This document shows positions 1,736 to 22,454 of a stretch of DNA of 22,454 bases, one piece after another. Numbering within the stretch: position 1 is the stretch's first letter; each line of letters begins with the position of its first letter. Source of the DNA: a virus. A program made the position numbers and the translations under genes. Where the stretch lies: the IMG/VR virus record IMGVR_UViG_3300030099_007171, positions 1 through 22,454 of that record, one strand, 5' to 3'. A model generated the notes under the pieces. The model saw nothing but the letters and a program-made list of their open reading frames with translations. It was not told the DNA's origin and did no database searches.

Positions 1736-2844
1736 TGAAGTTACCTAAATTAACAAATTTATCAGTTACCGGTACGACGGTTGGGGATGTGCATTTTCCA
1801 AAAGTGAAGCTGTTGTTGCCTTTTGATGGTTCGAACGGCGCCACGTCAACGACTGATAGCAGCAACACTAATAACTCAGTGACTTTTGTCGGTACTGCTC
1901 AGTTATCTACGGCGCAAAGCAAATTTGGTGGGAGCAGCCTTCTACTGGATGGTAATAGCGACTACATATATATAGCTAACGATGACTTAGATTTTTCAAG
2001 CACTGAAAGTTTTACTCTTGAATTTTGGGTCTATTTTAATAATATAGACGATGGAAATATAGTAAATTTTTACTCTGATTATTCTGGAGCCAGCAACGGA
2101 ATGTCAATTGATAAGAGTACTGGTAATGTGCTTAGAGCTCATAATGGAGACTCGACCCGTATTACTGGAACAACGACAGTTTCAGCTGGCCAATGGTATC
2201 ACATAGCGCTATCTGGCACTTCTGGGAGTTATAAACTATTTCTAAACGGAACTCAAGAAGGCAGCACTAGCAGTAATGGCTTCACAGGCGGCACTACTAA
2301 TAAGTATATAGGGACTTTCTATTGGGCAGGTTTAGGAGGGGCGGTTCGTCTCTTGAACGGGTATATTGAAGATTTTCGTATCACGAAAGGTGAAGCGCGC
2401 TATACTTCAAACTTTACCCCGCCGACTTCCGCTCATTTAACTTCCGCAGGCGACGTAAATAAGCACATTGTCGTCAACTCGGACGCGGACGGTGTAGCGA
2501 TTGGTACAGGCGGAATTAACCAAGCTCGGATTGCGAAAGCGTGGTGTAACTGGGACCAGACAGGAACAATCGCTATAAGATCTAGTTATAACATTTCTAG
2601 TATAAGTGACCTTGGTACTGGACGCACAGATGTAAATTTTTCAACCGCTATGGCTGATACAAATTATACCGCGGCCGTATACGGAAATCATTCAAGCTCT
2701 AATTCTGCATATACAAATTTTTCTGAGTATCAATCTTATGGAGCGGTATTGAGAACAGTAAACGATATTGAAGTCACTCATTATAAAGCTGGCACAGGCT
2801 ACATTGACTCAAAGCAGGCAGATTTAATAATTTTCGGGAATTAA
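1735..2844 (+). CDS. LamG-like fibre/receptor-binding protein, array copy 1
   Basis: 369 residues. The leader (1-20) ends in TGTTVGDVHFPKVKLLLPFDG. Residues about 25-232 look like a LamG/concanavalin A-like jelly-roll: FGGSSLLLDG, then a strand SFTLEFWVYF, W-Y-H-I-A-L, K-L-F-L-N-G, and the closing strand Y-I-E-D-F-R-I-T-K-G. From about residue 234 the C-terminal domain begins (HLTSAGDVNKHIVVNSDADG, then QARIAKAW and SSYNISSI) and ends in FGN. Domains of this fold bind carbohydrates or proteins in other systems, so a host-surface adhesin at the tail tip is inferred. The start overlaps the preceding fibre stop (TAATG). This is the most typical member of the seven and has the full VGDVHFP leader. 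Confidence 0.85.
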   Translation: MKLPKLTNLSVTGTTVGDVHFPKVKLLLPFDGSNGATSTTDSSNTNNSVTFVGTAQLSTAQSKFGGSSLLLDGNSDYIYIANDDLDFSSTESFTLEFWVYFNNIDDGNIVNFYSDYSGASNGMSIDKSTGNVLRAHNGDSTRITGTTTVSAGQWYHIALSGTSGSYKLFLNGTQEGSTSSNGFTGGTTNKYIGTFYWAGLGGAVRLLNGYIEDFRITKGEARYTSNFTPPTSAHLTSAGDVNKHIVVNSDADGVAIGTGGINQARIAKAWCNWDQTGTIAIRSSYNISSISDLGTGRTDVNFSTAMADTNYTAAVYGNHSSSNSAYTNFSEYQSYGAVLRTVNDIEVTHYKAGTGYIDSKQADLIIFGN

Positions 2845-2847
2845 AAA

Positions 2848-3978
2848 ATGAGAGAATTAAAACTAAGTAATGTTAAGGTCGCGGGTCAGTCTAGCGGAGA
2901 GACTAACTTTAATAAAGTATCTCTGCTCCTTCCTTTTGATGGGTCGGATACCGCAACTTCTACTAGCGACGAAAGTGATAATTCTCATACAATAACTTTT
3001 GCCGGTACAGCTCAGCTAGATACAGCTCAAAAGAAATTTGGAACAGCTAGCCTTTTGCTAGATGGAGATAGTGATTATATTCAAGTCGCAGACCACGATT
3101 CATTTGATTTTGACGCCGGAGACTTTACTGCTGAATGTTGGATTAGATTTGCAGCTTTGGGCAACAACACTATATTCAGTCATTGGGCAAATGGTACGGC
3201 AAGCTCAATGTCTTACTATTTAACATACTTTAACAGTAGCGGTATTTTAAGACTAGGTTATTATTTGGGCGGTAATCTCGATTCGACTTATTCGTGGTCG
3301 CCTTCTACTGGTACTTGGTATCATGTCGCGCTAGAAAGAAGCGGTACAACAATAAAAGTATATATAGATGGTACGTCGGTAATTTCTGTATCTGCCTCTA
3401 CTACAGCTTTAAGAGATTCTGAGGATCCGTTTAGAATAGGAGTATTTAATGACGCTACAACTGGCAGCCCGAGTTTAGATTGGTATTTTAATGGTCACAT
3501 AGACGACCTTAGAATAACTAAAGGTATTGCTCGTTATGGTACTAACTTTACTCCTCCAACTTCAGCGCATGAAACAACCGGAGGAGATGGAAACTTGCCT
3601 GTAGTATTAGACGCTGATGCTACTGGAGTTAGAGTGGATTATGATGGGACAACTAACCAAACGCGACTTGCAAAAGCGTGGGTGAATTTTAATGGATCCG
3701 GGACAGTTCAAATAAGGAGCAGTTATAATATAAGTAGTATTACGGATCAAGCAACTGGATTCTACGTGGCCAACTTTTCAACAGCTATGGCAAACCATGA
3801 TTATTGTGCGACCGTCAGCTCAGGTTGGAACACTGTGACTTGGGGCATTCCTATGTTTGGAACTATATCGGGAGAAACCACCCCTTTCACTGCTAGTAAA
3901 ATAGGAGTTACGGTGAACGATCCGTCCGATACTGACACAGATAATGCGTTCGTAATGATACAAGTTTTCGGGAATTAA
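2848..3978 (+). CDS. LamG-like fibre/receptor-binding protein, array copy 2 (divergent)
   Basis: 376 residues. The LamG features are clear: FGTASLLLDGDSDYIQVADH, D-F-T-A-E-C-W-I-R-F, W-Y-H-V-A-L-E-R, V-Y-I-D-G and H-I-D-D-L-R-I-T-K-G-I-A-R-Y. The leader departs from the family: the VGDVHFP motif is replaced by SGETNFNKV. The C-terminal junction is also altered (AHETTGGDGNLPVVLDADAT in place of HLTSAGDVNKHIVVNSDADG), although AKAWVNFNGSGTV, SSYNISSI and the final FGN remain. It is therefore one of the older or less gene-converted copies. Three bases separate it from copy 1, within the conserved junction sequence. Function as in copy 1, probably with a different ligand; this is inference. Confidence 0.85.
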   Translation: MRELKLSNVKVAGQSSGETNFNKVSLLLPFDGSDTATSTSDESDNSHTITFAGTAQLDTAQKKFGTASLLLDGDSDYIQVADHDSFDFDAGDFTAECWIRFAALGNNTIFSHWANGTASSMSYYLTYFNSSGILRLGYYLGGNLDSTYSWSPSTGTWYHVALERSGTTIKVYIDGTSVISVSASTTALRDSEDPFRIGVFNDATTGSPSLDWYFNGHIDDLRITKGIARYGTNFTPPTSAHETTGGDGNLPVVLDADATGVRVDYDGTTNQTRLAKAWVNFNGSGTVQIRSSYNISSITDQATGFYVANFSTAMANHDYCATVSSGWNTVTWGIPMFGTISGETTPFTASKIGVTVNDPSDTDTDNAFVMIQVFGN

Positions 3979-3981
3979 AAA

Positions 3982-5121
3982 ATGAATATAACCAAGCCAA
4001 GATTAGACCAATTTAAAATAACCGGAAGCACGGTTGGAGATTTGCATTTTCCGAACGTCATCTTTCTCGCTAAGTTTGATGGCTCAAATGGCAGCACCAG
4101 TATCACAGATTCTAGCAACAAAAATAATTCAATAACTGTGAACGGGGGCGCTCAAATTTCGACGGCGGCTAGCAAGTTCGGTGGAAGTAGCCTTAAGCTT
4201 GATTACGAAAATGCGGGAACGGGAGATAGATTAATTGCCGATACAGTGGCGGATAATTTAACGTCAACTACTCATACTATAGAATTTTGGTTTAAAACTG
4301 ATATGGCAGATAGTCATATCACTAGTCAAGATCCTGCCTTTTTTGGATTTAATGATGCTGGTAACAGTTATGATAATAGAATCATGCTGCAGATGACTTC
4401 CAAGACTAATCTTCGTTTTTATCGCGGGGCTAGTAACTATCACGACATGACAGTCAGCGCTATGAATGATGACGCATGGCATCATATAGCAATTGTTTCT
4501 GACGGAACAGATTATGATATATATTTCGATGGCAGCAGAATAAGTTCAGATGCAGGGGATTCTAGGCAAATAAATTCAAACGATACTTTTATGATTGGCG
4601 CAGAGTATGACTCTGGTCCAAGTACAGGTAATTATTTTAGCGGTTATATAGATGATTTTAGAATTACTAACGCAGTAGCTAGATACACCGGAGATTCTTT
4701 TGCTTTACCTACGACACATCTAACTTCCGAGGGAGATGTCAATAAACACATTGTCGTCAACTCTGACGCAGACGGTGTGGCGATAGGAACGGGCGGAATT
4801 TCTCAAGCTCGGATTGCTAAAGCTTGGGTAAACTTTAACGGAACGGGAACTGTGGCGATTAGGAGCAGTTACAATGTGAGTAGCATTACAGATGACGGAA
4901 CGGGCCGGTATGATGTTAATTTTTCAACAGCGATGCCTGACAATGATTACAGCGTAGTTTCGGATGGTCGTTACAACACTGGAGATAGCGCTGGATCATC
5001 TGTCGTTACTGTAAGAAGAGAAGCTTTAACTACTTCGAAGTTCGGCGTGAGAGGAGCTAATGTTGCAACAGAAGCTTTCAATGATTTTGAAATGGTATCA
5101 GCAATAGTTTTCGGGAATTAA
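3982..5121 (+). CDS. LamG-like fibre/receptor-binding protein, array copy 3
   Basis: 379 residues. The leader TGSTVGDLHFPNVIFLAKFD matches the family with DL for DV. The lectin-like core has FGGSSLKLDYENAGTGDRLI in place of the usual LDG-x-x-D-Y, followed by H-T-I-E-F-W-F-K, W-H-H-I-A-I-V, I-Y-F-D-G and Y-I-D-D-F-R-I-T. The core differs strongly from copies 1 and 2, while the C-terminal domain (HLTSEGDVNKHIVVNSDADG, QARIAKAWVNFNGTGTVAIR) is almost the same as copy 1. Conserved ends around a changed middle suit a receptor-binding protein under diversifying pressure. Gene spacing to both neighbours is set by the shared FGN/stop junction. Confidence 0.85.
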   Translation: MNITKPRLDQFKITGSTVGDLHFPNVIFLAKFDGSNGSTSITDSSNKNNSITVNGGAQISTAASKFGGSSLKLDYENAGTGDRLIADTVADNLTSTTHTIEFWFKTDMADSHITSQDPAFFGFNDAGNSYDNRIMLQMTSKTNLRFYRGASNYHDMTVSAMNDDAWHHIAIVSDGTDYDIYFDGSRISSDAGDSRQINSNDTFMIGAEYDSGPSTGNYFSGYIDDFRITNAVARYTGDSFALPTTHLTSEGDVNKHIVVNSDADGVAIGTGGISQARIAKAWVNFNGTGTVAIRSSYNVSSITDDGTGRYDVNFSTAMPDNDYSVVSDGRYNTGDSAGSSVVTVRREALTTSKFGVRGANVATEAFNDFEMVSAIVFGN

Positions 5122-5127
5122 AAAAAT

Positions 5128-6270
5128 ATGGCTTTATCAAAATTAAGACTAGGACAGTTAAAACCAGCGGACGGAGCGACGACGGTTGGAGATGTGCATT
5201 TTCCGAACGTGAAGCTTCTCTTGCCTTTTGATGGTTCAAACGGCGCTACTAGCACTAGCGATTCAAGCAATTCGAGTCAATCTGTTACATTTAATAACTC
5301 TGCAGAGATTTCAACTACGCAAAGCAAATTCGGAGGTAGCAGCTTAAGCTGCCCGGATGGATTAACGAGTGACGTTAGTACTTCTTGGAATGCTATGCCA
5401 ACTGGCACTGAGGATTTTACTATCGAATTGTGGGCCTACTTTATCGACAGAACAGGAGGGGGCAGAACCGAAACTGATTTTGGTATTTGGGGCAATAGAA
5501 ATACTTCGGGTACAGACAATATCCATCTATATGTAGGTTATCCTGACGATAATATGCTAGGGTTTCTAATTAACGATACGGATGTGCAACTGACGACAAC
5601 TTGGAATGTTACTTCTAATTTGAACGCTTGGCATCATATAGCTCTAACAAGAGCAAGTAATACTTTTAAACTTTTTGTTGATGGTACTCAGGTAGGAACT
5701 ACTACTTCTACAGCAACTATGACAAGATCTTATAGCGATTTATTTATCGGAAGCAGTGGGCATACGTGGAATGCAACCAGAGCCACAAGGGGATTCATTG
5801 ACGGTTTTAGAATAACCAGAGGGACAGCAAGATACACATCTGCTTTTACTGCCCCTTCTTCTGCGCATCTGACTTCCGCCGGAGATGTTAACAAGCACAT
5901 CGTTGTAAACTCCGATGCTGATGGAGTGGCAATTGGAACGGGCGGGATAAACCAAGCGCGGATTGCGAAAGCTTGGATAAATTATAATGGAACTACAGCA
6001 AGTATTAGAGACAGTTACAATATTGGGAGTATCACAGATAATGGCACTGGTCAACATACTATTAATTACTCAACAGCAATGTCAGATGCTAATTATAGTA
6101 TAACTGTATTTGCGCATGATGATCAAACGAGCAGTTATTGGTGGAGATCAGCAGTATCTCAAGAAGGAGTTGCCCAAGCAGCAGGGTCCTTCAAAGTCGA
6201 AACAATACATCCGACAGTTGGGGACATTCGTGACAGTGATACTGTATGCGCACAAATTTTCGGGAATTAA
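5128..6270 (+). CDS. LamG-like fibre/receptor-binding protein, array copy 4
   Basis: 380 residues, the longest copy. The leader carries an extra few residues before TTVGDVHFPNVKLLLPFDG. Core features: FGGSSLSCPDG, D-F-T-I-E-L-W-A-Y-F, W-H-H-I-A-L-T-R, L-F-V-D-G and F-I-D-G-F-R-I-T-R-G. The C-terminal domain keeps HLTSAGDVNKHIVVNSDADG and QARIAKAW but has a shortened N-Y-N-G-T-T-A-S-I-R strand. The junction upstream is slightly longer than at the other copies (ATTAAAAAAATATG), leaving six bases between the stop and the start. The gene downstream is the small lipoprotein rather than another lectin-like copy. Confidence 0.85.
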   Translation: MALSKLRLGQLKPADGATTVGDVHFPNVKLLLPFDGSNGATSTSDSSNSSQSVTFNNSAEISTTQSKFGGSSLSCPDGLTSDVSTSWNAMPTGTEDFTIELWAYFIDRTGGGRTETDFGIWGNRNTSGTDNIHLYVGYPDDNMLGFLINDTDVQLTTTWNVTSNLNAWHHIALTRASNTFKLFVDGTQVGTTTSTATMTRSYSDLFIGSSGHTWNATRATRGFIDGFRITRGTARYTSAFTAPSSAHLTSAGDVNKHIVVNSDADGVAIGTGGINQARIAKAWINYNGTTASIRDSYNIGSITDNGTGQHTINYSTAMSDANYSITVFAHDDQTSSYWWRSAVSQEGVAQAAGSFKVETIHPTVGDIRDSDTVCAQIFGN

Positions 6271-6273
6271 AAA

Positions 6274-6507
6274 ATGAAAAAACTTTTACTAACTTTTACT
6301 TTAATTTTCTCCGGTTGTTCAACCGTAGACGATCAAGGTAGGTTGGAAAAAGTCAGAATCGCCGTACCAGCTTTCTTCCAAATAGAAATGGACTACTATA
6401 AAGATAAAGAGAATAAAGGCAAGGGAAGTGTAAATACTAACGTCGTACATTCTCCTTACGGGACTGTTAACGGTTATCCTAAATTAATGGACATGATAAG
6501 AAAATGA
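6274..6507 (+). CDS. Small predicted lipoprotein inside the LamG array
   Basis: 77 residues. The N-terminus is M-K-K followed by a hydrophobic stretch LLLTFTLIFSG and Cys15, a plausible signal peptidase II lipobox (F-S-G-C). Cleavage would leave a mature protein of about 63 residues starting C-S-T-V-D. Serine at +2 would, by the enterobacterial rule, send it to the outer membrane. The mature part is charged and has no further membrane segment. It starts from the same FGN/TTAAAAA junction as the lectin-like genes and its stop overlaps the next start (ATGA, 6504-6507), so it is translated with them. Phage lipoproteins of this size can mask receptors against superinfection (for example T5 Llp) or be outer-membrane spanins (Rz1). 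The place among receptor-binding genes favours the first, by inference only. No sequence match to either family is recognised. Confidence 0.7.
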   Translation: MKKLLLTFTLIFSGCSTVDDQGRLEKVRIAVPAFFQIEMDYYKDKENKGKGSVNTNVVHSPYGTVNGYPKLMDMIRK

Positions 6508-7637
6508 GTTTTAACGCGCCAGATATAAGACAGTTTAAGTTGACCGGAAGTACGGTTGGAGATCTGCATTTTCCGAAAACGGAATTGCTGTTGCCTTTTG
6601 ACGGAACGAACGGCTCAACGTCAACAACTGATAGTAGCAATCGGAATAATTCAATTACTTTTAATGGTAATGCTCAAATATCTACGGCGCAAAGCAAATT
6701 CGGCGGAAGTAGTCTTTTGTTGGATGGGGCGGGAGATTATTTACAAGTCGCTAATCAAGATTATTTTGATTTTGGCAGTAGTGATTTTACTATAGAGTGC
6801 TGGTTTTATTTTGACTCTTCCTCAAGTGAAACTTATAACACTTTATTAGATATGGGTAATGGAAGTGCAGCGGGAAGCGGGCCGTATTGGACAGGAGTGA
6901 AAAGTGATAGCGGAACTTATACTTTATTTGTGCAGATGGATAGCACAGCTGGGGGAGACTGGGATCTCATAAACAATGTGGCGATTACTACTGTATCAGC
7001 AAGCACTTGGCACCATTTTGCAATAAGCAGAGAGGGTAGTAGTTTTAAAGTATTTTTAGATGGAACTTCTGTTTTAACAACGACTAATTCTAATCCTTTA
7101 CGAGACGAAAATAGCGCTCTGCAAATTGGAGCGAGAGGCCAGAATACGGCATCTCATTATTTTAAAGGGTATATAGATGACGTTCGCATAACGAATGGTG
7201 TTGGCCGCTATACATCAAATTTTACTGCTCCAACTACTGCGCACCTAACTTCCGCCGGAGATGCAAATAAACAAATAATTGTAAACTCCAGCGCCGATGG
7301 AATTGATGTAGGAACGGGCGGAATAAACCAAGCGCGGATTTCTAAAGCGTGGGTAAACTTTAACGGATCAGGAACAGTTGCTATTAGAGACAGTTATAAC
7401 GTAAGTAGTATCACAGATAATGGAACAGGCGACTACTCTGTCGTTTTTTCAACAGCGATGTCAGATGCTAATTATTGCATGAACATGAACTCAGGAGACA
7501 AGGCTAGTACGTGGGGAATTCCTATTTATGACGGAGTATCAAACTATACCACTTCGCTTTGCAGATTTTTGACACAAGGCCCAGATGACGGTCCAAATGA
7601 CAACGTTATAGTGTGCGCAAGTTTTTTCGGGAATTAA
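6504..7637 (+). CDS. LamG-like fibre/receptor-binding protein, array copy 5
   Basis: 377 residues. The leader TGSTVGDLHFPKTELLLPFD is followed by FGGSSLLLDGAGDYLQVANQ, D-F-T-I-E-C-W-F-Y-F, W-H-H-F-A-I-S-R, V-F-L-D-G and Y-I-D-D-V-R-I-T-N-G. The C-terminal domain has HLTSAGDANKQIIVNSSADG and a serine for alanine at QARISKAW. The last 50 residues (STWGIPIYDGVSNYTTSLCR) resemble those of copy 2 (VTWGIPMFGTISGETTPFTA), an affinity not shared by the other copies, which suggests exchange of tails among members. The start overlaps the lipoprotein stop by four bases and lacks the usual junction in front, so it depends on coupling with the lipoprotein gene. Confidence 0.85.
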   Translation: MSFNAPDIRQFKLTGSTVGDLHFPKTELLLPFDGTNGSTSTTDSSNRNNSITFNGNAQISTAQSKFGGSSLLLDGAGDYLQVANQDYFDFGSSDFTIECWFYFDSSSSETYNTLLDMGNGSAAGSGPYWTGVKSDSGTYTLFVQMDSTAGGDWDLINNVAITTVSASTWHHFAISREGSSFKVFLDGTSVLTTTNSNPLRDENSALQIGARGQNTASHYFKGYIDDVRITNGVGRYTSNFTAPTTAHLTSAGDANKQIIVNSSADGIDVGTGGINQARISKAWVNFNGSGTVAIRDSYNVSSITDNGTGDYSVVFSTAMSDANYCMNMNSGDKASTWGIPIYDGVSNYTTSLCRFLTQGPDDGPNDNVIVCASFFGN

Positions 7638-7640
7638 AAA

Positions 7641-8741
7641 ATGAAAAAGTTACCTCTAGATTATATAAAAACTTTTGGGTCGACAGCTGGAGATGATCAA
7701 TTTGCAAAAGTGACTGCGCTGTTCAACTTTGATGGCAGTGATGGGGACACTACTGCATCAGGACTAGATTCGAGTAATAAAAATCTCACTGTTAGCTATA
7801 GTTCAGGAGATCAGTTAAGCAACACTCAAAAAAAATTCGGTGCGACTAGTTTATATGTTGCCGATAACGTAGCACTCTCTTCTAGTGACGGATTTAATAT
7901 GGGAACGGGAGATTTTACTATTGAAGCATGGTATTATTTTACTTCTTTTAGTAATAGCTTCGGTCATTACGATCAATGGGCGGGAAGCTCAACTGGAGTG
8001 GGCAACGTTCAAATGTGGAACTCAACTTCAGCCCAAGGGAAAATAAAGTGGTATTACAACGGTAACAGTAATTTTACATCTAGTACTACAATGTCTACCG
8101 GTCAGTGGTATCATGTAGCTTATGTCAGAGAAAGTGGGACTTTAAAAATGTACTTCAACGGTACAGTTGACTCGAATACTCAAAGTTATAGCAGCCAATT
8201 TGGTAAAACTGGCACAGTGTATCTTGGGGATCAACACGCAGGTGGCGGAGGAGCGCCACAGTATTACATAGACGACTTAAGAGTCACAAAAGGATTAGCT
8301 AGATATACTTCCAACTTTACTGCGCCGACTACTGCGCATTTAACTTCTGCGGGAGATTCTCTTAAGAATATTATTGTCAACGAAGATGCTGATGGAGTCA
8401 TAATTGGAACAAGCGGCATAAGCACAACGCGGATTGCGAAAGCATGGGCAGAATTTGATGGATCTGGAGTGACTTTAAACGCATCTTATAACGTAAGCAG
8501 TATTACTGATCATGGCAATAGAGATTATACTATAAACTTTTCTGCAGCAATGGCAGACGCAAATTACAGTATAGTAGGATCAAACATAGGGCAGACCGCT
8601 TCGTACAACTGGTCTGTGGTCACAGGGATGGGGACAGCGAAAACTACTAGCGCAGCAAGAATAAATGTACCTCATATTAATGATAATAGTTTGTACGGTA
8701 ACGACCCAGACGCAGTAAATGTAATAGCCTTCGGGAATTAA
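7641..8741 (+). CDS. LamG-like fibre/receptor-binding protein, array copy 6 (divergent)
   Basis: 366 residues, the shortest copy. The leader is divergent, with GSTAGDDQFAKVTALFNFDG in place of VGDVHFP, and the LDG-x-x-D-Y strand is lost (FGATSLYVADNVALSSSDGF). The remaining core fits: D-F-T-I-E-A-W-Y-Y-F, W-Y-H-V-A-Y-V-R-E, M-Y-F-N-G and Y-I-D-D-L-R-V-T-K-G-L-A-R-Y. The C-terminal domain is also changed (HLTSAGDSLKNIIVNEDADG, STTRIAKAWAEFDGSGVTL) and the gene ends A-F-G-N. Together with copy 2 it forms the more distant part of the family. A receptor-binding role is inferred from family membership. Confidence 0.85.
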   Translation: MKKLPLDYIKTFGSTAGDDQFAKVTALFNFDGSDGDTTASGLDSSNKNLTVSYSSGDQLSNTQKKFGATSLYVADNVALSSSDGFNMGTGDFTIEAWYYFTSFSNSFGHYDQWAGSSTGVGNVQMWNSTSAQGKIKWYYNGNSNFTSSTTMSTGQWYHVAYVRESGTLKMYFNGTVDSNTQSYSSQFGKTGTVYLGDQHAGGGGAPQYYIDDLRVTKGLARYTSNFTAPTTAHLTSAGDSLKNIIVNEDADGVIIGTSGISTTRIAKAWAEFDGSGVTLNASYNVSSITDHGNRDYTINFSAAMADANYSIVGSNIGQTASYNWSVVTGMGTAKTTSAARINVPHINDNSLYGNDPDAVNVIAFGN

Positions 8742-8744
8742 AAA

Positions 8745-9851
8745 ATGAGACAATTTAAACTAGATAAAATTAAAGCTACTGGAACGACGGTTGGGGATGT
8801 GCATTTTCCGAAAGTGAGCCTGCATCTTACTTGCGAAGGGAGCAACGGTTCTACTACCGTGACTGATTCAAGTAATACTAATGCAAGTATAACGTGCATT
8901 GGATCAGCTCAAATTTCAACAGCTCAAAGCAAATTTGGCAGCTCTAGTTTAGCTACTGCTTCCGGAGATATTTCTATATCAACAACTAATATATTTAATT
9001 TTGGCACTTCAGATTTTACTGTAGAGTTTTGGTTTTATAGAACAGGATTAGGATCTAGCAATAATTTTATCGTTGATGGAAGACCAAGCGGGAACAATTC
9101 TAATACATTTATGTTATATATGCCAACCAGTACAACCGCTCCAAGATATCATACTGCCTCTTCTGACCAGATAACTTCATCAATAAATTTAGGAACGAAT
9201 GCTTGGACGCATATAGCAGTAGTTAGAAACTCGGGGACTACAACTCTTTATATGAATGGTGTCAGCGGCGGGAGCTTTTCTGATAGCACTGATTATATCG
9301 ATACAGGTGGCACAACATTAGGATTTTGGGCAGGCTCCTCAACTGATTATTCTATGTATACAACGCCCGGTTATTTTGATGATTTTAGAGTCACCAAAGG
9401 AGTCGCTCGTTATACTTCAAATTTCACGCCGCCAACTACTGCACATCTAACTTCCGCCGGAGATGTTAATAAACAAATCGTCGTCAACTCCGACGCAGAC
9501 GGTGTGGCGATTGGAACGGGCGGCATTTCTCAAGCGCGGATTGCAAAAGCGTGGGTGTATTTTAATGGAGAAAATTCGGCGGCGAATATGATTCAAGGAA
9601 GTTATAACATTTCCAGTATAGCTGATGACGGAACTGGGAAATATCAAATAAATTTTTCAACAAATATGTCTGACACTAATTATTCAGTTGTTGGTGGACT
9701 TGGCGGTACTTCCAATAGCTACTCTAGCACTATAGCAATTGTGAGGTTTTCTCATACTCCCGACGCAACACACCAAAACATGTCCACCGCGTATAGTAGT
9801 GGGAGTTTTTACGACTTTCCTAGAGTATACGTAGTATTTTTCGGGAATTAA
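8745..9851 (+). CDS. LamG-like fibre/receptor-binding protein, array copy 7
   Basis: 368 residues. The leader TGTTVGDVHFPKVSLHLTCE is very close to copy 1 also at the DNA level (ACGACGGTTGGGGATGTGCA in both). The core has FGSSSLATASGD without the LDG motif, then D-F-T-V-E-F-W-F-Y, W-T-H-I-A-V-V-R, L-Y-M-N-G and Y-F-D-D-F-R-V-T-K-G. The C-terminal domain keeps HLTSAGDVNKQIVVNSDADG and QARIAKAWVYFNG and ends F-F-G-N. It closes the array: the same junction (TCGGGAATTAAAAA) follows its stop, but a promoter and an unrelated small gene come next. Confidence 0.85.
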   Translation: MRQFKLDKIKATGTTVGDVHFPKVSLHLTCEGSNGSTTVTDSSNTNASITCIGSAQISTAQSKFGSSSLATASGDISISTTNIFNFGTSDFTVEFWFYRTGLGSSNNFIVDGRPSGNNSNTFMLYMPTSTTAPRYHTASSDQITSSINLGTNAWTHIAVVRNSGTTTLYMNGVSGGSFSDSTDYIDTGGTTLGFWAGSSTDYSMYTTPGYFDDFRVTKGVARYTSNFTPPTTAHLTSAGDVNKQIVVNSDADGVAIGTGGISQARIAKAWVYFNGENSAANMIQGSYNISSIADDGTGKYQINFSTNMSDTNYSVVGGLGGTSNSYSSTIAIVRFSHTPDATHQNMSTAYSSGSFYDFPRVYVVFFGN

Positions 9852-15181: not shown

Positions 15182-15952
15182 ATGAAAAGGTTATACGAAT
15201 TCACCGTAAAGAAAAAGGAATCGGTCGAGAAGGAAGTCCAAGACGTAAATAAGGCTGGAGAAGAAATTACAGTCAAGAAAACTGTCGAGGAAGAGGTAGA
15301 AAAAAAGTTCTTCTTACGAAGACCAACTCGCGCAATGCTAGACGAAGGAGAACTTTATTATGGCGTAGAATTAGGCAAAGCTATTCGCGCTGGAATGATT
15401 ACTCGGCCGCTGCTGCATAAACGTTATACTAACGACGGAGGTATAATGAATGACCTCCAACAAAAAGCTTTCGACGAACTTACTAAAGAGCTTAGAGAGA
15501 TATATAAACAGCAGGAAGAGATTAACGTAATCGACGAAAAGAAAAGAACCAACGCTCAAAAGAAAAAGCATAAGGAGCTAGAGGATAAGGCTAAACCATA
15601 TCTTGAAACCATGAGAAGATATAACATGGCCGAAGAGTCTATCTTTGAAGATACCGCCGAATCTCGCGCTAGAAATAAAGCAATTTTGTGGTGGGTGTTG
15701 TTCATGTCATATAATGATGATGAGACTCCATTTTTTGACAAAGGAGAATTAGAAGATCGCATCGAAAAATATGATGAAATTGACGAAGGTCAAGATCCGT
15801 TTTTGACTTCTGTAGTAGGAGAGTTCACCTATAATATCAGCCTATGGTACTTCGCCCGTCCAAACAGTAAAGAACAATTCGAGGAATTGAAGAAAGGCGT
15901 CACTGACTTGGAAGAGGAGCCGGAGGAAAAAGAAGAGAAGAAAAAGAAATAG
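15182..15952 (+). CDS. Putative tail assembly chaperone, first gene
   Basis: 256 residues, highly charged (Glu/Lys-rich), starting MKRLYEFTVKKKESVEKEVQ. A central coiled-coil-like part (residues about 95-140: Q-K-A-F-D-E-L-T-K-E-L-R-E-I-Y-K-Q-Q-E-E) is followed by a more globular C-terminal part with A-I-L-W-W-V-L-F-M-S-Y and a lysine/glutamate tail (E-E-P-E-E-K-E-E-K-K-K-K). Position two genes before the tape measure gene is that of the upstream tail assembly chaperone. The usual -1 frameshift arrangement is not seen: shifting at the A-rich end gives a stop after three codons. No family motif was recognised, so the call is positional. Confidence 0.5.
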   Translation: MKRLYEFTVKKKESVEKEVQDVNKAGEEITVKKTVEEEVEKKFFLRRPTRAMLDEGELYYGVELGKAIRAGMITRPLLHKRYTNDGGIMNDLQQKAFDELTKELREIYKQQEEINVIDEKKRTNAQKKKHKELEDKAKPYLETMRRYNMAEESIFEDTAESRARNKAILWWVLFMSYNDDETPFFDKGELEDRIEKYDEIDEGQDPFLTSVVGEFTYNISLWYFARPNSKEQFEELKKGVTDLEEEPEEKEEKKKK

Positions 15953-15997: not shown

Positions 15998-16993
15998 ATG
16001 GAAAGGCAGGAATTAAAATTAGTATTTTCGGAGATAGTCGAGGGATATTCCTTGACTCGCTCTGAACTATTCGGCGATTTAAAAATTAAACATATCAATA
16101 ACTATGATTCGGCGAAAACAGATATTAAAAATAATTACTATTTTGAAAAAGCCGTATCACAAGGACTGCCTAAAAGAGAAGAAAAAGTAGAATATTTGAT
16201 AAAAGAAAAACTCTGGGATCCTGAGAAAGATAAAGAGGCAGATAGATTAAAAGAAATGCTGAAGGGTATGAACAGGACGAAGTCAAAATTGTTCCTACAA
16301 GCTCAAATAGACGCTATAAAAAAAGATATAGTAAATAACGAAATGAAGTTAAGTAACATATTGGCTGAGAAAGAATCTGTTATAGGATTCACCGCCGAAG
16401 AATATGCTAACAGAAGAATCAACGAATACTATATGCACATATCTATTCTCGACGAAGAGGGTAAACAGCTTTTCGGCGAAAATGAATTTGATGAATTAGA
16501 ACAGGATCAAGTAAATGATATAATGCAGGTTTACGAAAAGAATAATCGTAAATTTAAAGCTGAAATTTTAAAAAAAATATCTTTAGCAGACTTTTTTACA
16601 AATATCTTTTATCTCTGCGAAGATAACGTATTTAATTTTTATGGCAAACCAGTAATAGATCTCACTTTTTACCAAATAGAAATATACAGTTACGGTAGAT
16701 ATTTCAAAAGTATTATACAGAACTCGGAAGAAAAGATACCCGACCATATAGTCGAGGATCCGGATAAACTGATAGAATGGGCCGAATCTAGCAAGAATGT
16801 AAAAGAAGTCCTTGAGAAGAGCTCTGGGGACGCAGAAAGCGGCGCTTCTAGCATCATGGGAGCCACGAAACAAGACTTGGCAAAAGCCGGAATAGATGAA
16901 AACCAAGATGTTATAGATTTGTCTCAAAAAGCCCAAGAAAAGGGCGGAAGACTCACTATGGAAGATATGATGAAATTGCACGGAGTCAAGTAA
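15998..16993 (+). CDS. Putative tail assembly chaperone, second gene
   Basis: 331 residues, helical and charged, directly before the tape measure gene. It contains M-L-K-G-M-N-R-T-K-S-K-L-F-L-Q-A-Q and a long mixed-charge segment to about residue 190, then an aromatic region (D-F-F-T-N-I-F-Y-L-C-E-D-N-V-F-N-F-Y-G-K-P-V) and a flexible C-terminus (S-G-D-A-E-S-G-A-S-S). It is in the same frame as the preceding gene but separated from it by three stop codons and a hairpin. The ATG at 15998 follows the T-run immediately; the next in-frame ATG (16255, codon 87) would remove a quarter of the protein, so 15998 is preferred. A role with the tape measure protein is inferred from place; no family was recognised. 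Confidence 0.55.
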   Translation: MERQELKLVFSEIVEGYSLTRSELFGDLKIKHINNYDSAKTDIKNNYYFEKAVSQGLPKREEKVEYLIKEKLWDPEKDKEADRLKEMLKGMNRTKSKLFLQAQIDAIKKDIVNNEMKLSNILAEKESVIGFTAEEYANRRINEYYMHISILDEEGKQLFGENEFDELEQDQVNDIMQVYEKNNRKFKAEILKKISLADFFTNIFYLCEDNVFNFYGKPVIDLTFYQIEIYSYGRYFKSIIQNSEEKIPDHIVEDPDKLIEWAESSKNVKEVLEKSSGDAESGASSIMGATKQDLAKAGIDENQDVIDLSQKAQEKGGRLTMEDMMKLHGVK

Positions 16994-17011: not shown

Positions 17012-20000
17012 GTGGCGGAGAAGTTACGGGCAGAATTAGAGATACTAACGGCAAAGGCTGAAAAGGATTTAAAAAGGTTTGATAGATCTTTAGCTGGTGT
17101 CGAGAGAAGAATTACGTCTATGGGCGGCAAAGGAGGCAAGTCCCTAAAGCCTCTTGGAGAAGGTTTATCCGCCGCTACAGTAAATGCCAACGAGTTCGAG
17201 AAATCGATGGCAGCGGCGAATGCCCGTGTTATTGCATTCGGTGCTTCTGCTGGTCTGATAATGGCCGTCCAACGTGCGCTAAAAGAAACTGTCCGCGCTA
17301 CTATTGAAGTTGAAAAGTCTCTTGCTGATATTAACGTTGTATTAAATGCTAATAGTAAAAACCTGCAACAGTTCGGAGACAACCTTTTTAAAGTAGCAGG
17401 GCAGACCGGACAAGGATTTAAAACTGTAGCTACTGCTGCGACAGAATTAGCAAGGCAAGGTCTAGGGATGGAGAAAACTCTTCTCCGTACTAAAGACGCT
17501 CTCATTCTCACAAGGCTTACTGGAATGGGCGCTGAAGAAGCAGTGTCTTCCTTGACTGCTGCTGTTAACTCTTTTTCTAAAGCTGGAATTACGTCTGCAG
17601 AAGTGATTAATAAAATGGCAAAAGTCGATCAGGCTTTTGCTGTCAGCTCAGACGATTTAGCTAAAGCTATATCTCGAGTAGGTTCATCTGCAGTTGATGC
17701 CGGAGTTAGCATGGACGAACTTCTTGCTATCACAACCGCAGTACAACAGAGAACTGCTCGTGGCGGCGCAGTAATAGGTAACGCCTTCAAAACTATTTTC
17801 ACTAGAATCGGAAGAACTGACGTTCAGAAAAAGTTGTCTGATATCGGAGTAGCGACTAAGGATATGGCTACAGGAGCCATGCTCCCTGCAACAAAAGTAT
17901 TAGAAAATTTATCTAAAAAATTCCAAACTTTAGGCAAGACTCAACAAAACCAGATAGCAGAAAGCGTGGCTGGAGTTTTCCAAGTCAATATCCTGCGTGC
18001 TGCCTTAGGAGATCTGTCGAATAAATATGGAGTATATAATAGAGCTATAAGAGAGTCCGCTAGTGCTACTAACGAAGCTTACCTGAAAAACGAACAATTA
18101 AATAAAACTTTAGATGCGTTAACAAATAAAACTTTAGCTAATTTAACTAAAGCTGGATCTGCTATAGGCGGAGCAACTTTGCAGCCCGCTATAGAAAATG
18201 TTCTAAATTTAGTAAACAGCGCTATAGGAGCATTTGGCAAAGGAGGCAGGTTCGAAGAATTTGGCAAGGGCATAGGAAAAGATTTACTAGAAGGTATAGG
18301 TAAATTTATATCAGGTCCCGGGTTAGTTATATTAACTGCTGGGATTGTTAAGCTTGGAGCAAGCTTCGCAGGATTTGCTTTCGATGCGCTGAAAGGATTC
18401 GCGGCTTTAGGAAAAGAGGCCGCGAATAGAAAAGCTTTAGAAGCACAAATAACCGCAGAGCTGCAGAGACAGCCAAATATAATAAGACAAATAGAAAGAG
18501 GCGAACTATCTGCTGCTAACGCTGCTAGAGATATGTTGGCAGCCATGAAAGCTTCAAATCTAGAAGCTACAAAACTTGCCACAACTACTTCAAGAATATC
18601 TGCTAGTATGATGGGAATGGGCGCCCTTAGAAGACCCGGTCGAGCCCAAGGCTTTATTCCTAACTTCGCCGATCCAAATGCAGAAAGAGCTTCCGCCGCT
18701 ATGGGCGGATATAAAGCTGGCGCTATCAAAAGCATGAACATTCCGGGGCAGGGTTCTGTAATGTATAATAGCGCAGAAACTGTTAAGAGATTCCCGGGTA
18801 TGCAGCAGCCTGCTATTATGCCACCGCAAGGAAGCCGCGCTGGTTCTAATTATCAAAAAGCTTTCGGCGCTGCACACGGCTTTGATCCTTACGCCGCTGG
18901 TGGATTTGTCCCTAACTTCAACAAGATGAGCGTAAAGCAACTTTTTGGATTAGATAGAAACGCTAAAATTAGAGATATAAATGTAAACGAACAAAGGTCA
19001 AAACAGCTAGAAGATGCTGCGGCATCAGGAAGATTAAGGTTTGATGATTATAGCGATAATCCAGCGATAGCAGCTGCTGTTACAAGAGGTAAATTAAGAG
19101 CTCAAGGCACTAAAACAGAGCAAGTAGGTAAGAACTATACTCATAACGCAAGTTACCTAGGACTTTTAGGATTAGAAGGATCGCATCTGGGCACGAGCAC
19201 AACATCTCTTGGTAAAATAGCTAGATTTGCTGATGCAGGGCTAGATCCTAGATTATTGAAGAGAAAAGTTACCTTTACCCACATGCAATCTAAATCTATA
19301 AATGAGATAACTAAGGGTAGCACTCAGGTAAATAAATCTAAATTTTCTGATCTCATTTCGGAAAAAATGACAACCCCGGTGTCTCAAATAGCGAATGAGA
19401 TATTTCAACAAGCTTTAGGAAACGACCACGACATCGCAGTAGCTGATTTACAAAAACAATTTAAAGGAAACCACCAATTACTGCCTCCGGGTGCAGAAGG
19501 AAGTATATTTGAAGCGGCCGTTAACTTAGGATTATTAACGACTAAAAAAAGTCCGAAGGCAAGATTAGATGCCTTTGACCAAAGCACTAAAGGAGCCCAA
19601 AAACCTTTTGACTTTGAGGAGTCAGGAAGAGCCAAACCTCCTTTTAGAGAGACCTTTCACTTTGAGCCAAACCTTCTCTACGCAGACGCTAAAAGAACTA
19701 TAGATAATAAGAGCATGGGCACGCTAATTAAAAAGGCCTACAATCAACACATACCGGGACTACCCGGATTAGAGCTACTCGAAGGGGGAGCAACTGTCGC
19801 AAAGGGCGCGAAAAAAAGAAAAGCTTTAGGCCACGTTCCGAACTTCTCTCCGCTAGGAGACGCGATCACAAGAGAAAGAGCGGCCGGTGTTCCTAGGTCT
19901 GCTATTAGAGTTGGCGCAAGCGCTTCATTAAGAAGCTCGGGCAACCCAGCAGGACTCGGGGTATATAATACTATAGACGAACCAGCAGGTCTGCACCAAG

Positions 20001-22454
20001 GTATTAATAGGTCAAGAAGCATGGGTATAAATCCGAAGACTCATGGAGTGCCTAACTTCCAGTTTAGATCAACTTCCAACAGAGCTCAAACTTTTAGGCC
20101 TCATGAGCTTGGTCTAAGTCCAGTCGCAGAGTCTAAACAAGTTCAAGCTAACGATAAATTTGACAAAGGAAGTGAAAAGCTCACAAAAGCCGCTGGTAAA
20201 CTAGAAAAATCAGCGGCAGGAATGAACATGGGAATGGGCAAACTCATGGGGTTGACTTCTCTTGCTTATGGGCTAACGCCTGTAATGGGAAGTATGGGTA
20301 TGGAGGAAGATACTCAGAATAGGATGATGAGAGGGCTGACTGGACTGACAATGGCGCAAAGCCTAGGTATGTTTACGGGAGACTTCGGAGAATTTAACGA
20401 AGGCAGAAAAAACATGAAGTCACGTATCGCGAAATCACCAGCGGCCGGTCGACTTTCTTTCGGACAAAAGCTAGGTATGGGAGTAAAGGCAGGCTTCAAA
20501 AATATGCTAGGAATAGAAAAAGGAGGCAAGTTAGGATTTAAAGGGGCGGCGACAGGCGTCGGCAAGCTTGGATTTAAAGCTCTTCCTTTTGTCGGAACTG
20601 CGTTGTCTGTACTAGACATGACTACTGGAATTTTTGATAGTTTTTCTCAAGCAAGCGAAGAAGAAGAAAGGATGAGAAAACTTCAAGAAAAGCTAGCTGG
20701 AATCGAAGACAGTCCTATAAGGATGGCTACAGAAACAGGATTGTCGCAGCTTACTAATTTCGTAGGAGGTTTTGCTGGGGCTACAGGTCAACAAAGAGCG
20801 GCTGCTTTTTCGGATTTACAAAAAACTTTTGGTGGAGATTTTACAAAAAGTTTATCCAACGATGAGCTGACTAGATTTTCTTCTGCGTTTAAAGAATTCC
20901 AAGATTCTTTCTCTGGAGGTTCTGCTTCTGTAGAAGAAAAAGGCAAAGAGTTATCCAGAGTTCTAACGGAGTTAGCGGAAGCAGAGCAAGATGCAAAAGC
21001 CGCGACCTTAGACTCAATTAAAGCTGAGGAGATAAGAAATAAAATCCTAGAAGGCACTCCCGGCCTAATGAAAACCTCAGAGCCTAAAGAAGAGTTTGTA
21101 CGCCGGGAACTAACAGAAGATGAAAAAGCTCTGTTTAGAGTTTTGGGTCAAGAGCCGCCAGCTACTTCACGTGAGTCAATTGGATTTTTCACTCAGCAAG
21201 TCGAAGATACTAAAAAAATTAAAAGCCTTGTAGACATGCTTTTAGACCCAGAGTCTACAGGAGGCACTGCAATTAAAGGCGGTATAGCAGGCGTAAATCA
21301 AAGAATAGCAGATCGATTAAAAGAAACTGGGGGTCCGGTTACTCCAGAGGCTATAAGAAAAATACTTATTTCTTCGATGGGCGAAGCAGGTATGGACACC
21401 GACTTTCTCCATAGAGGCGTTTTTGGGATGCAGACAGGAGCATCTGGAGCTTTAGGAGCTGCCGGGCCTAGAGGACAACAAGCTCTTTTAGCAGAGTTAT
21501 TTAGAAGAGGCGCTGGGAATGAAGCGCAAATTAGACTTTTAATGTCTAAAGTTGAAGCACAAGATTTCAAGGGAGATCAAGGAGTAGGGTCAGCAAGAGA
21601 TAGAGGTATGGCGGCACAGAAAGCTCTAGACATAAGAATTGACAAAGAATTATACAAAACAAATTTAGATGAGCAAAAACTAACTCAAAAAACTAACTCT
21701 CTAAAAAGAGCGTATAATGACGCGCTTAAAGCTAGCACTCAAGGCATTTACGCTGAAAGTAGAATAAAACTTAGAGAGTCTAAACAAGCCTTACAAAATG
21801 CTTATGATAATAATACTAAAGAAGCTAGGAATGAAATTGAATTCATCACCAGAGACTTTGAAGTGCAGCGGCAGAACATAATAGCGGGCTTAAAAGGCGC
21901 GACAAAATCAGACAAGTTTCGGCAAGACGTATTTTTAGAAAGGTTAACGAAGACCGAGGGATTAGAAGGCAGAGATGCTGTCAACAGATTGGCGGAAACA
22001 CAAGCAAAGCTTAAAGACGCGGGAGCCGACGGCACTATGCAAAGAATTCTAAAAGCTGAAGAAGATATGCTCAAGGCTATCATAGCAAGAGATGATAAAC
22101 TAAGGGCCAATAATGCGATATTAACAAGAGAAGAAAACGCCTTGAATGCGGGTGTGCGTCAAGCAGAGATACAGTTAGAGATAGATCAACAAATATTAAA
22201 AAATAAATATAAATTTAATAGACGTTTAGAAATGCAAATAAAAAATCTAGAACATCAACTTGAAGTAGATAGAAATAGATTTTTAGATGTAGATTTAAAA
22301 TCAGGTAAAATAACGGCAGATGAATTTAGGTCTAGAAAAGCTTCTGAACGATCCAAAGGCAGAGATGCTAAAGGTATGGCTGGAGTGCCTATGGCTAGCT
22401 TCGGTGAAATAGTAGAAGAGTCTTTCAAATTTGGCCCGAGAGACGCGGCTGAAA
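17012..22454 (+). CDS. Tape measure protein, 3' end beyond window
   Basis: Starts at GTG 17012 (MAEKLRAELEILTAKAEKDL) and is open for 1814 codons to the window end. Residues about 60-330 look like the TP901-type phage tail tape measure core: A-A-A-N-A-R-V-I-A-F-G-A-S-A-G-L, E-K-S-L-A-D-I-N-V-V-L and T-A-V-Q-Q-R-T-A-R-G-G-A-V-I-G-N-A-F-K-T-I-F. Hydrophobic stretches follow near 428-465, 1070-1100 and 1180-1212. Residues 547-1016 hold four P-N-F motifs that bound distinct modules, one nuclease-like. From about 1540 the chain is coiled-coil-like. Tape measure proteins fix tail length inside the tube and often take part in DNA entry. The start is a GTG because no ATG lies before the conserved N-terminal part; it leaves 18 bases after the previous stop. 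The family call is strong; the internal modules are interpretation. Confidence 0.85.
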   Translation, partial: MAEKLRAELEILTAKAEKDLKRFDRSLAGVERRITSMGGKGGKSLKPLGEGLSAATVNANEFEKSMAAANARVIAFGASAGLIMAVQRALKETVRATIEVEKSLADINVVLNANSKNLQQFGDNLFKVAGQTGQGFKTVATAATELARQGLGMEKTLLRTKDALILTRLTGMGAEEAVSSLTAAVNSFSKAGITSAEVINKMAKVDQAFAVSSDDLAKAISRVGSSAVDAGVSMDELLAITTAVQQRTARGGAVIGNAFKTIFTRIGRTDVQKKLSDIGVATKDMATGAMLPATKVLENLSKKFQTLGKTQQNQIAESVAGVFQVNILRAALGDLSNKYGVYNRAIRESASATNEAYLKNEQLNKTLDALTNKTLANLTKAGSAIGGATLQPAIENVLNLVNSAIGAFGKGGRFEEFGKGIGKDLLEGIGKFISGPGLVILTAGIVKLGASFAGFAFDALKGFAALGKEAANRKALEAQITAELQRQPNIIRQIERGELSAANAARDMLAAMKASNLEATKLATTTSRISASMMGMGALRRPGRAQGFIPNFADPNAERASAAMGGYKAGAIKSMNIPGQGSVMYNSAETVKRFPGMQQPAIMPPQGSRAGSNYQKAFGAAHGFDPYAAGGFVPNFNKMSVKQLFGLDRNAKIRDINVNEQRSKQLEDAAASGRLRFDDYSDNPAIAAAVTRGKLRAQGTKTEQVGKNYTHNASYLGLLGLEGSHLGTSTTSLGKIARFADAGLDPRLLKRKVTFTHMQSKSINEITKGSTQVNKSKFSDLISEKMTTPVSQIANEIFQQALGNDHDIAVADLQKQFKGNHQLLPPGAEGSIFEAAVNLGLLTTKKSPKARLDAFDQSTKGAQKPFDFEESGRAKPPFRETFHFEPNLLYADAKRTIDNKSMGTLIKKAYNQHIPGLPGLELLEGGATVAKGAKKRKALGHVPNFSPLGDAITRERAAGVPRSAIRVGASASLRSSGNPAGLGVYNTIDEPAGLHQGINRSRSMGINPKTHGVPNFQFRSTSNRAQTFRPHELGLSPVAESKQVQANDKFDKGSEKLTKAAGKLEKSAAGMNMGMGKLMGLTSLAYGLTPVMGSMGMEEDTQNRMMRGLTGLTMAQSLGMFTGDFGEFNEGRKNMKSRIAKSPAAGRLSFGQKLGMGVKAGFKNMLGIEKGGKLGFKGAATGVGKLGFKALPFVGTALSVLDMTTGIFDSFSQASEEEERMRKLQEKLAGIEDSPIRMATETGLSQLTNFVGGFAGATGQQRAAAFSDLQKTFGGDFTKSLSNDELTRFSSAFKEFQDSFSGGSASVEEKGKELSRVLTELAEAEQDAKAATLDSIKAEEIRNKILEGTPGLMKTSEPKEEFVRRELTEDEKALFRVLGQEPPATSRESIGFFTQQVEDTKKIKSLVDMLLDPESTGGTAIKGGIAGVNQRIADRLKETGGPVTPEAIRKILISSMGEAGMDTDFLHRGVFGMQTGASGALGAAGPRGQQALLAELFRRGAGNEAQIRLLMSKVEAQDFKGDQGVGSARDRGMAAQKALDIRIDKELYKTNLDEQKLTQKTNSLKRAYNDALKASTQGIYAESRIKLRESKQALQNAYDNNTKEARNEIEFITRDFEVQRQNIIAGLKGATKSDKFRQDVFLERLTKTEGLEGRDAVNRLAETQAKLKDAGADGTMQRILKAEEDMLKAIIARDDKLRANNAILTREENALNAGVRQAEIQLEIDQQILKNKYKFNRRLEMQIKNLEHQLEVDRNRFLDVDLKSGKITADEFRSRKASERSKGRDAKGMAGVPMASFGEIVEESFKFGPRDAAE
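18650..20059 (+). repeat. Four dispersed P-N-F motifs in the tape measure protein
   Basis: Motifs: GFIPNFA (residues 547-553), GFVPNFN (631-637), GHVPNFS (940-946) and GVPNFQ (1012-1017), at bases 18650, 18902, 19829 and 20045. All are preceded by a short small-residue or charged stretch and divide the chain into modules of about 77, 302 and 65 residues. They are too regular in form to be chance, and the codons differ (CCT AAC, CCT AAC, CCG AAC, CCT AAC, with varied neighbours). Confidence 0.7.
19499..19699 (+). other. Possible PD-(D/E)XK nuclease-like domain within the tape measure protein
   Basis: Within the module between P-N-F motifs 2 and 3 there is a helix-like G-S-I-F-E-A-A-V-N-L with Glu834, a strand-like P-F-D-F with Asp867, and L-L-Y-A-D-A-K-R-T with Asp892 and Lys894. 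The order Glu ... Asp ... Asp-x-Lys, with 25 residues between the last two parts, is the usual arrangement of the PD-(D/E)XK fold, where Asp and (Asp/Glu)-x-Lys bind metal and the helix Glu assists. It is a pattern match by eye only. Confidence 0.4.

Follow-up and report, generated by a model that had tools for sequence, protein, structure and literature searches.

The middle part of the tape measure protein (TMP) studied here was divided by a short P-N-F motif into modules, and the explanation that best accounts for the data is likely to be a phage TMP that carries exchangeable modules in an internal bay. A modular cargo bay in the TMP is very likely. Sequence comparison shows whole cargo modules being exchanged, gained and lost, with the boundaries exactly at the motif. 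Many modules resemble enzymes, and it is fairly likely that the cargo would be enzymatically active in the host, as predicted. The new element would be a TMP-mounted cargo of several modules with a shared linker motif, and the concept appears closest to that of the polyvalent proteins.

The tape measure gene and its relatives

The window, which is the whole 22,454-base viral fragment analysed, contains the TMP gene at 17012..22453 on the plus strand. The gene has a GTG start and is open at the 3′ end of the window, with 1814 aa visible. The end coordinate given in an earlier note, 20059, is that of the fourth motif; the ORF runs past the end of the window. Two genes upstream of the TMP gene, at 15182–15952 and 15998–16993, occupy the place where TMP chaperones are encoded. 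The encoded protein matched PF10145 (E = 1.5e-27) and the TMP family phrog_4211 (E = 5.4e-53). Twelve more families were matched, nearly all of them annotated as TMP, and tblastn recovered annotated TMPs, including SPbeta YomI, through the generic N-terminal domain. The matches identify the gene as encoding a tape measure protein; a position in the tail tube and a role in tail length are predicted for it. The conserved N-terminal TMP region is encoded at 17138..18214 (plus strand, aa 43–401), with PhageMin_Tail at aa 131–321. The C-terminal TMP region is encoded at 20060..22453 (plus strand), and the contig ends before the gene does. A complete copy of the gene in a 76%-identical relative (L210/L217) encodes 2225–2226 aa. 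The TMP length was 1862–3712 aa among complete relatives and reached 5040 aa in the enlarged set.

Relatives were gathered via conserved patches. A total of 263 TMP-like ORFs was obtained, with 200 left after the removal of near-duplicates, all on uncultured contigs; the family counts given below describe this sample and not all phages. Cultured relatives were sought by tblastn of the whole TMP, two other TMPs and the two bracket modules described below (M1 and ML) against 50,697 phage records. Only generic N-terminal TMP matches were found in these records, and the bracket modules were present in none.

The 76%-identical complete TMP is located on a 76,987-base contig (L210, NZWA01000041.1) assigned by binning to a public Flavobacteriales MAG. 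A second relative (L212) is placed in a Flavobacteriaceae MAG. These placements are either a hint of the host or a binning artefact. The L210 contig encodes a TerL (phrog_2, E = 7.4e-27) and a tail-tip protein (PF13550), together with a weak portal match (phrog_16240, E = 0.00028); no sheath gene was found among the scanned genes of this contig.

Several other genes were observed in the window and on the related contig. A row of seven paralogues, each about 370 aa long, occupies 1735–9851 of the window; they share 36–51% mutual identity and have the look of LamG/ConA-type lectins. This lectin-like tandem array possibly encodes receptor-binding or decoration proteins. The related contig also encodes a Laminin_G_3 protein. 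The window encodes a fibre-like protein with collagen-like Gly-x-x repeats at 230–1735, and two very long proteins with similar collagen repeats are encoded on the related contig. A further protein of the related phage contig combines an ERCC4 nuclease domain with a C2H2-type zinc finger and an HNH-associated repeat (L214:11775-12710).

The P-N-F motif, the bracket modules and the predicted structure

Four copies of the motif were located on the plus strand of the window gene: GFIPNF (motif 1, 18650..18667, aa 547–552), GFVPNF (motif 2, 18902..18919, aa 631–636), GHVPNF (motif 3, 19829..19846, aa 940–945) and the variant GVPNF within T-H-G-V-P-N-F (motif 4, 20045..20059, aa 1012–1016). All four copies reported earlier are thus present, with the reservation that the fourth is one residue shorter than the pattern given for it. 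The wider pattern [FYHVILMW][IVLF]PN[FYW] occurred nowhere else in the forward frames of the window, and no copy of G-F-I/V-P-N-F was found in its reverse frames. The DNA form of motifs 1 and 2 was expected 0.00 times in shuffled windows.

The distribution of the motif was investigated in the relatives. At least 120 IMG/VR stretches encode GF[I/V/M]PNFA, and among the IMG/VR matches listed, 94 of the 120 matching ORFs were long ORFs with at least two motifs. A consensus built on 360 copies, again among the matches listed, was [AS]-x-G-[FY]-[IV]-P-N-F-[AS], preceded by a stretch rich in K, G and N. The strict pattern occurred 212 times in 69 complete non-redundant relatives, compared with 0 times in residue shuffles. 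In these 69 proteins the median position of the first motif was aa 548, and the last motif was followed by about 1280 aa (median). There were 679 copies in 364,229 aa of TMP, against 24 in the 1,011,724 aa of the remaining frames; almost every one of the 24 belonged to a cut-off or re-fetched TMP. Motif arrays were found only in TMP-like ORFs, where they invariably came after the N-terminal domain and before the C-terminal region. The number of motifs per protein was 2–12 among the 200 non-redundant TMP-like ORFs, and the distance from motif to motif was irregular, with 5th and 95th percentiles of 58 and 351 aa. A lineage represented by L116 and L027 has TMPs with one motif near the C-terminus. 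One copy of GFVPNFA, probably due to chance, was seen in an internal virion protein of another phage type (L066:3714-9170, phrog_6651).

The order of the array was motif, M1, motif, cargo modules each ending in a motif, ML and a final motif. One to nine variable modules lie between M1 and ML; the window has one, of 303 aa (aa 637–939). M1 is encoded at 18668..18901 (plus strand, aa 553–630) and is a conserved, folded alpha/beta unit. It has about 78 aa, a mean column identity of 68% over 15 sequences and an AlphaFold2 pLDDT of 84–88. ML is encoded at 19847..20044 (plus strand, aa 946–1011) and is likewise conserved and folded. Its length is about 58–82 aa, its mean column identity 66% and its AlphaFold2 pLDDT 85–92. 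M1 is encoded by 190 contigs and ML by at least 431 IMG/VR contigs. Homology between M1 and ML was weak (hhalign 74%, partly due to the motif itself). The earlier view that the motifs bound modules of unlike character was borne out, although not every segment is cargo: M1 and ML are conserved brackets.

An ML-like stretch, DPL.NAI.RE....NLAIANT.E, was also observed at the end of the TMPs of Nostoc phage N1 (L218:2710-4788) and Anabaena phage A-1(L) (L219:2746-4815). It is not accompanied by a P-N-F motif in these cyanophages. Both cyanophage TMPs were reached via the C-terminus of the single-motif TMPs L116 and L027. This stretch suggests that the ML bracket could be an ancient component of TMPs.

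The three-dimensional structure of aa 531–1040 of the window protein was modelled by AlphaFold2 with an alignment of 71 relatives. The model showed three folded units, M1, the cargo and ML, with pLDDT mostly 70–95. The pLDDT was below 50 at model residues 1–24, 102–105, 172–175, 398–415 and 486–510. Motif 2 (residues 101–106) coincides with the low-confidence residues 102–105, and motif 3 (410–415) falls within 398–415. Motif 1 (17–22) lies within 1–24, at one end of the construct, and motif 4 (482–486) borders 486–510; with these two so close to the construct ends, only motifs 2 and 3 are informative on disorder. A motif buried in a continuous fold had been named as the observation that would speak against the modular reading. 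When this was examined, the motifs lay in low-confidence linkers between folded units. The model suggested that the motifs lie in linkers between independently folding units.

The same conserved peptide is found at each joint in linkers predicted to be disordered, which suggests recognition by a common partner. The motif would be a recognised joint. Its likeliest function is that of a protease site from which the modules are set free, and the next likeliest that of a docking or chaperone-binding site. Proteolysis of the TMP during tail assembly has been reported for other phages (PMC10966104). Cleavage at the motif, with release of the modules by a protease, is proposed tentatively and is given somewhat less than even weight. 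The second option is that the motif is a docking site, chaperone-binding site or hinge that is left uncut, so that the modules stay in one chain and are anchored for threading and refolding. This option is given only slightly less weight than cleavage. It is consistent with the conservation of the hydrophobic peptide G-F-I/V-P-N-F-A in disordered linkers, and with the presence of the motif beside the small M1 and ML, which are not obviously cargo themselves. Against it, the irregular motif spacing is unlike that of a periodic tube anchor.

Cargo modules, their proposed delivery and known systems

A total of 497 cargo modules from the 200 non-redundant relatives was grouped into 106 sequence families. 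The window cargo, encoded at 18920..19828 (plus strand, aa 637–939), belongs to the main family, which accounts for 145 of the 497 modules (enlarged set), 130 of them with the regex signature. Residues G830, E834, D867, K894 and K908 of the window protein were invariant in 71 of 71 aligned sequences, and position 892 was D in 41 and E in 30 of the 71. The mean column identity of this alignment was about 24%; the catalytic-type residues are kept while the rest diverges. The resulting pattern, G-F-E...D...(D/E)xK...K, is the signature of PD-(D/E)xK nucleases. A second cargo family has the pattern E...D...ExK. The window cargo is therefore a probable PD-(D/E)xK-type nuclease, with its activity predicted from the conserved residues. 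It had no match in Pfam, and profile searches of solved structures returned nothing. The AlphaFold models used to look for a restriction-endonuclease-like fold were of fair confidence. Foldseek searches with models of the window cargo and of a relative's cargo (pLDDT 81, pTM 0.67, better than the window's) gave no significant match in the PDB or among predicted viral structures; EcoRV entries appeared in the Foldseek list only at E = 1.4–2.4.

Other enzyme types were detected in the cargo of relatives. A module of L128, lying wholly between two motifs, matched the staphylococcal nuclease family PF00565 (E = 1.9e-9, profile positions 3–106 of 107) and, by phmmer, thermonuclease chains (E = 1.7e-4). 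Pfam matches were also obtained for GNAT acetyltransferases (E down to 7.8e-7), and a GHKL-type ATPase (HATPase) module was found at E = 5e-5. The matches to P-loop and ParB-like modules were weaker. ADP-ribosyltransferase-like, kinase-like, HAD-like and HExxH (peptidase-like) modules were recognised at motif level, by eye or regex. TMPs with several enzymes occurred among the relatives, for example L085, L114, L128 and L221, with nuclease, GNAT and P-loop types. The majority of the 106 module families had no Pfam match. PADLOC gave one match only, which was SNase-like.

TMPs are known from other phages to fill the tail tube and to leave it at infection (PMC13277306, PMC10966104). Because TMPs occupy the tail tube and exit during infection, we infer that the tail carries the modules and that they reach the cell interior. 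Foldable enzyme modules would ride in the tail tube as the middle part of the TMP and, when the TMP leaves the tube, would pass into the cell together with the DNA or before it. The delivered modules could then target DNA, either the host's or a competitor's, or proteins of defence and regulation. The earlier proposal of domain carriage inside the tail, with its putative steps of packaging and entry, fits the modularity, the exchange and the enzyme likeness of the modules. One point counts against a cargo bay: globular modules of 200–300 aa would fit the tail tube only when unfolded or somehow accommodated.

It is improbable that the modules instead belong to the virion structure or help to penetrate the envelope, with a function in the tail or periplasm and not as effectors in the cytoplasm. 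Known phage TMPs do carry peptidoglycan hydrolase motifs (Piuri & Hatfull 2006, cited in PMC13277306), and SPbeta YomI is annotated as a transglycosylase. However, no lysozyme, transglycosylase or M23 family was matched among the modules scanned. The matches obtained were to nucleases, acetyltransferases and ATPases. Enzymes of these kinds generally have cytoplasmic substrates, and the module turnover is that of conflict proteins.

The exchangeable cargo bay was compared with known systems. Polyvalent proteins (Iyer et al. 2017, PMC5512222) also unite unrelated enzyme domains in a single large polypeptide that is shuffled rapidly. Their domains include ART, GNAT, kinase, ParB-like, peptidase and nuclease types; they are thought to be injected with the DNA and to target the nucleic acids, proteins and defence systems of the host early in infection (PMC5512222). 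Multiple unrelated enzyme domains were likewise found in the relatives, with the window itself holding a single cargo, and a phage with portal/terminase packaging is indicated by the terminase (phrog_2) and the weak portal match. The systems differ in the carrier. Phage polyvalent proteins are described as packaged in the capsid, whereas the carrier here is the TMP and delivery is deduced from the location of TMPs. Tape measure proteins and linkers are not mentioned in PMC5512222; here a fixed bay has the same motif at each joint.

Enzymatic TMPs, such as that of mycobacteriophage TM4 with its TMP motif and SPbeta YomI, belong to the same protein class with a PF10145 N-terminal domain. They carry envelope-hydrolase parts for entry, in contrast to the up to nine nuclease, acetyltransferase, ATPase or other modules with a common separator motif described here. 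The CIS TMP-derived effectors Sle1/Tme also have a TMP-related carrier and an exchangeable part loaded in the tail tube (PMC13277306). In Sle1 the functional domain follows an N-terminal coiled coil resembling that of TMPs, and the gene belongs to a CIS cluster. Sle1/Tme have a single C-terminal variable part, a bacterial injection particle and a DUF4157 protein (PMC13277306), while the cargo here is internal and multiple, is encoded in a phage genome with a terminase and is associated with a linker motif. Polymorphic toxins similarly consist of a conserved carrier and a rapidly exchanged effector part. Their toxin domain is C-terminal and accompanied by an immunity gene, whereas the cargo here is internal and followed by about 1280 aa (median). 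A literature search for the motif string and for effectors carried by TMPs found no description in a relevant setting.

Protein delivery by phages is known mainly for head-packaged proteins, and here the tail ruler appears to be a swappable carrier of several enzymes in uncultured phages of a common group. The more than 100 module families, mostly unannotated, are candidate early anti-host or anti-defence proteins that can be found by the separator motif, and the motif allows a direct test of cargo loading, release and delivery through the phage tail. A general cargo-mounting system of phage tails, widespread in uncultured phages and comprising a bay, loading, release at the peptide and co-delivery of several anti-host or anti-defence enzymes, is conceivable and is put forward with reserve.

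Exchange of modules at the motif

Among 856 pairs of TMPs with similar N-termini, the mean identity was 81% for the N-terminal region and 81% for M1, compared with 25% for the first cargo. In the pair L132 and L137, identity was 100% over 460 N-terminal residues and 96% in M1 but 4% in the cargo. The DNA similarity of this pair extends over bases 1–1889, and motif 2 is located at 1876–1893. The DNA of L138 resembles that of L140 up to base 1900, and the similarity resumes at base 2605, where motif 3 starts. Compared with L192, L186 has one additional whole module, which is inserted exactly between two motif copies. The module order was also variable, with 72 distinct orders in 75 TMPs that have at least three cargo modules.

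The ends of similarity blocks were located relative to the motif. In the non-redundant TMPs of the first set, 61–68% of block ends lay within 10 aa of a motif, against 10% of random points. In arrays with at least three cargo modules the corresponding values were 44% and 8%. Since HSP counts are not independent events, the ratio and not a probability is the result. The modules between motifs, described earlier as unlike one another, change independently of their flanks, and many are enzyme-like.

The breakpoints of exchange lie inside the motif codons, which would suit a recombination site in which the motif DNA, and not the peptide, matters for moving cassettes. This was judged very unlikely, with ordinary codon use and with residues conserved across distant phages. 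The synonymous codon entropy of the motif was equal to background (G, 1.82 vs 1.88; P, 1.75 vs 1.81; N, 0.87 vs 0.84), by which the DNA site was largely refuted. Because motif codon use equals that of the rest of the gene, selection appears to act on the peptide and not on a DNA site.

An ordinary TMP with a fast-evolving middle, in which the motif is a conserved patch of one continuous domain, is scarcely credible: TMPs are known to be mosaic and to evolve rapidly by sequence (PMC10684548), but this reading was refuted by the exact insertion of a module and the cassette exchange in DNA, by the unrelated enzyme domains between motifs, and by the three separate folded units and their linkers in the AlphaFold2 model.

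Mosaicism of TMPs has been noted at the sequence level, but it could not be established as recent shuffling (PMC10684548). For the present phage group, the cassette exchanges read from the aligned genes confirm it, and a modular cargo bay in the TMP is the reading retained. A duplication was also observed in L197:10298-14600: two neighbouring modules, one of 116 aa and one of about 130 aa, are present as a pair close to the beginning of the array and again close to its end. The two copies of the 116-aa module are nearly identical, which indicates that the duplication is recent.
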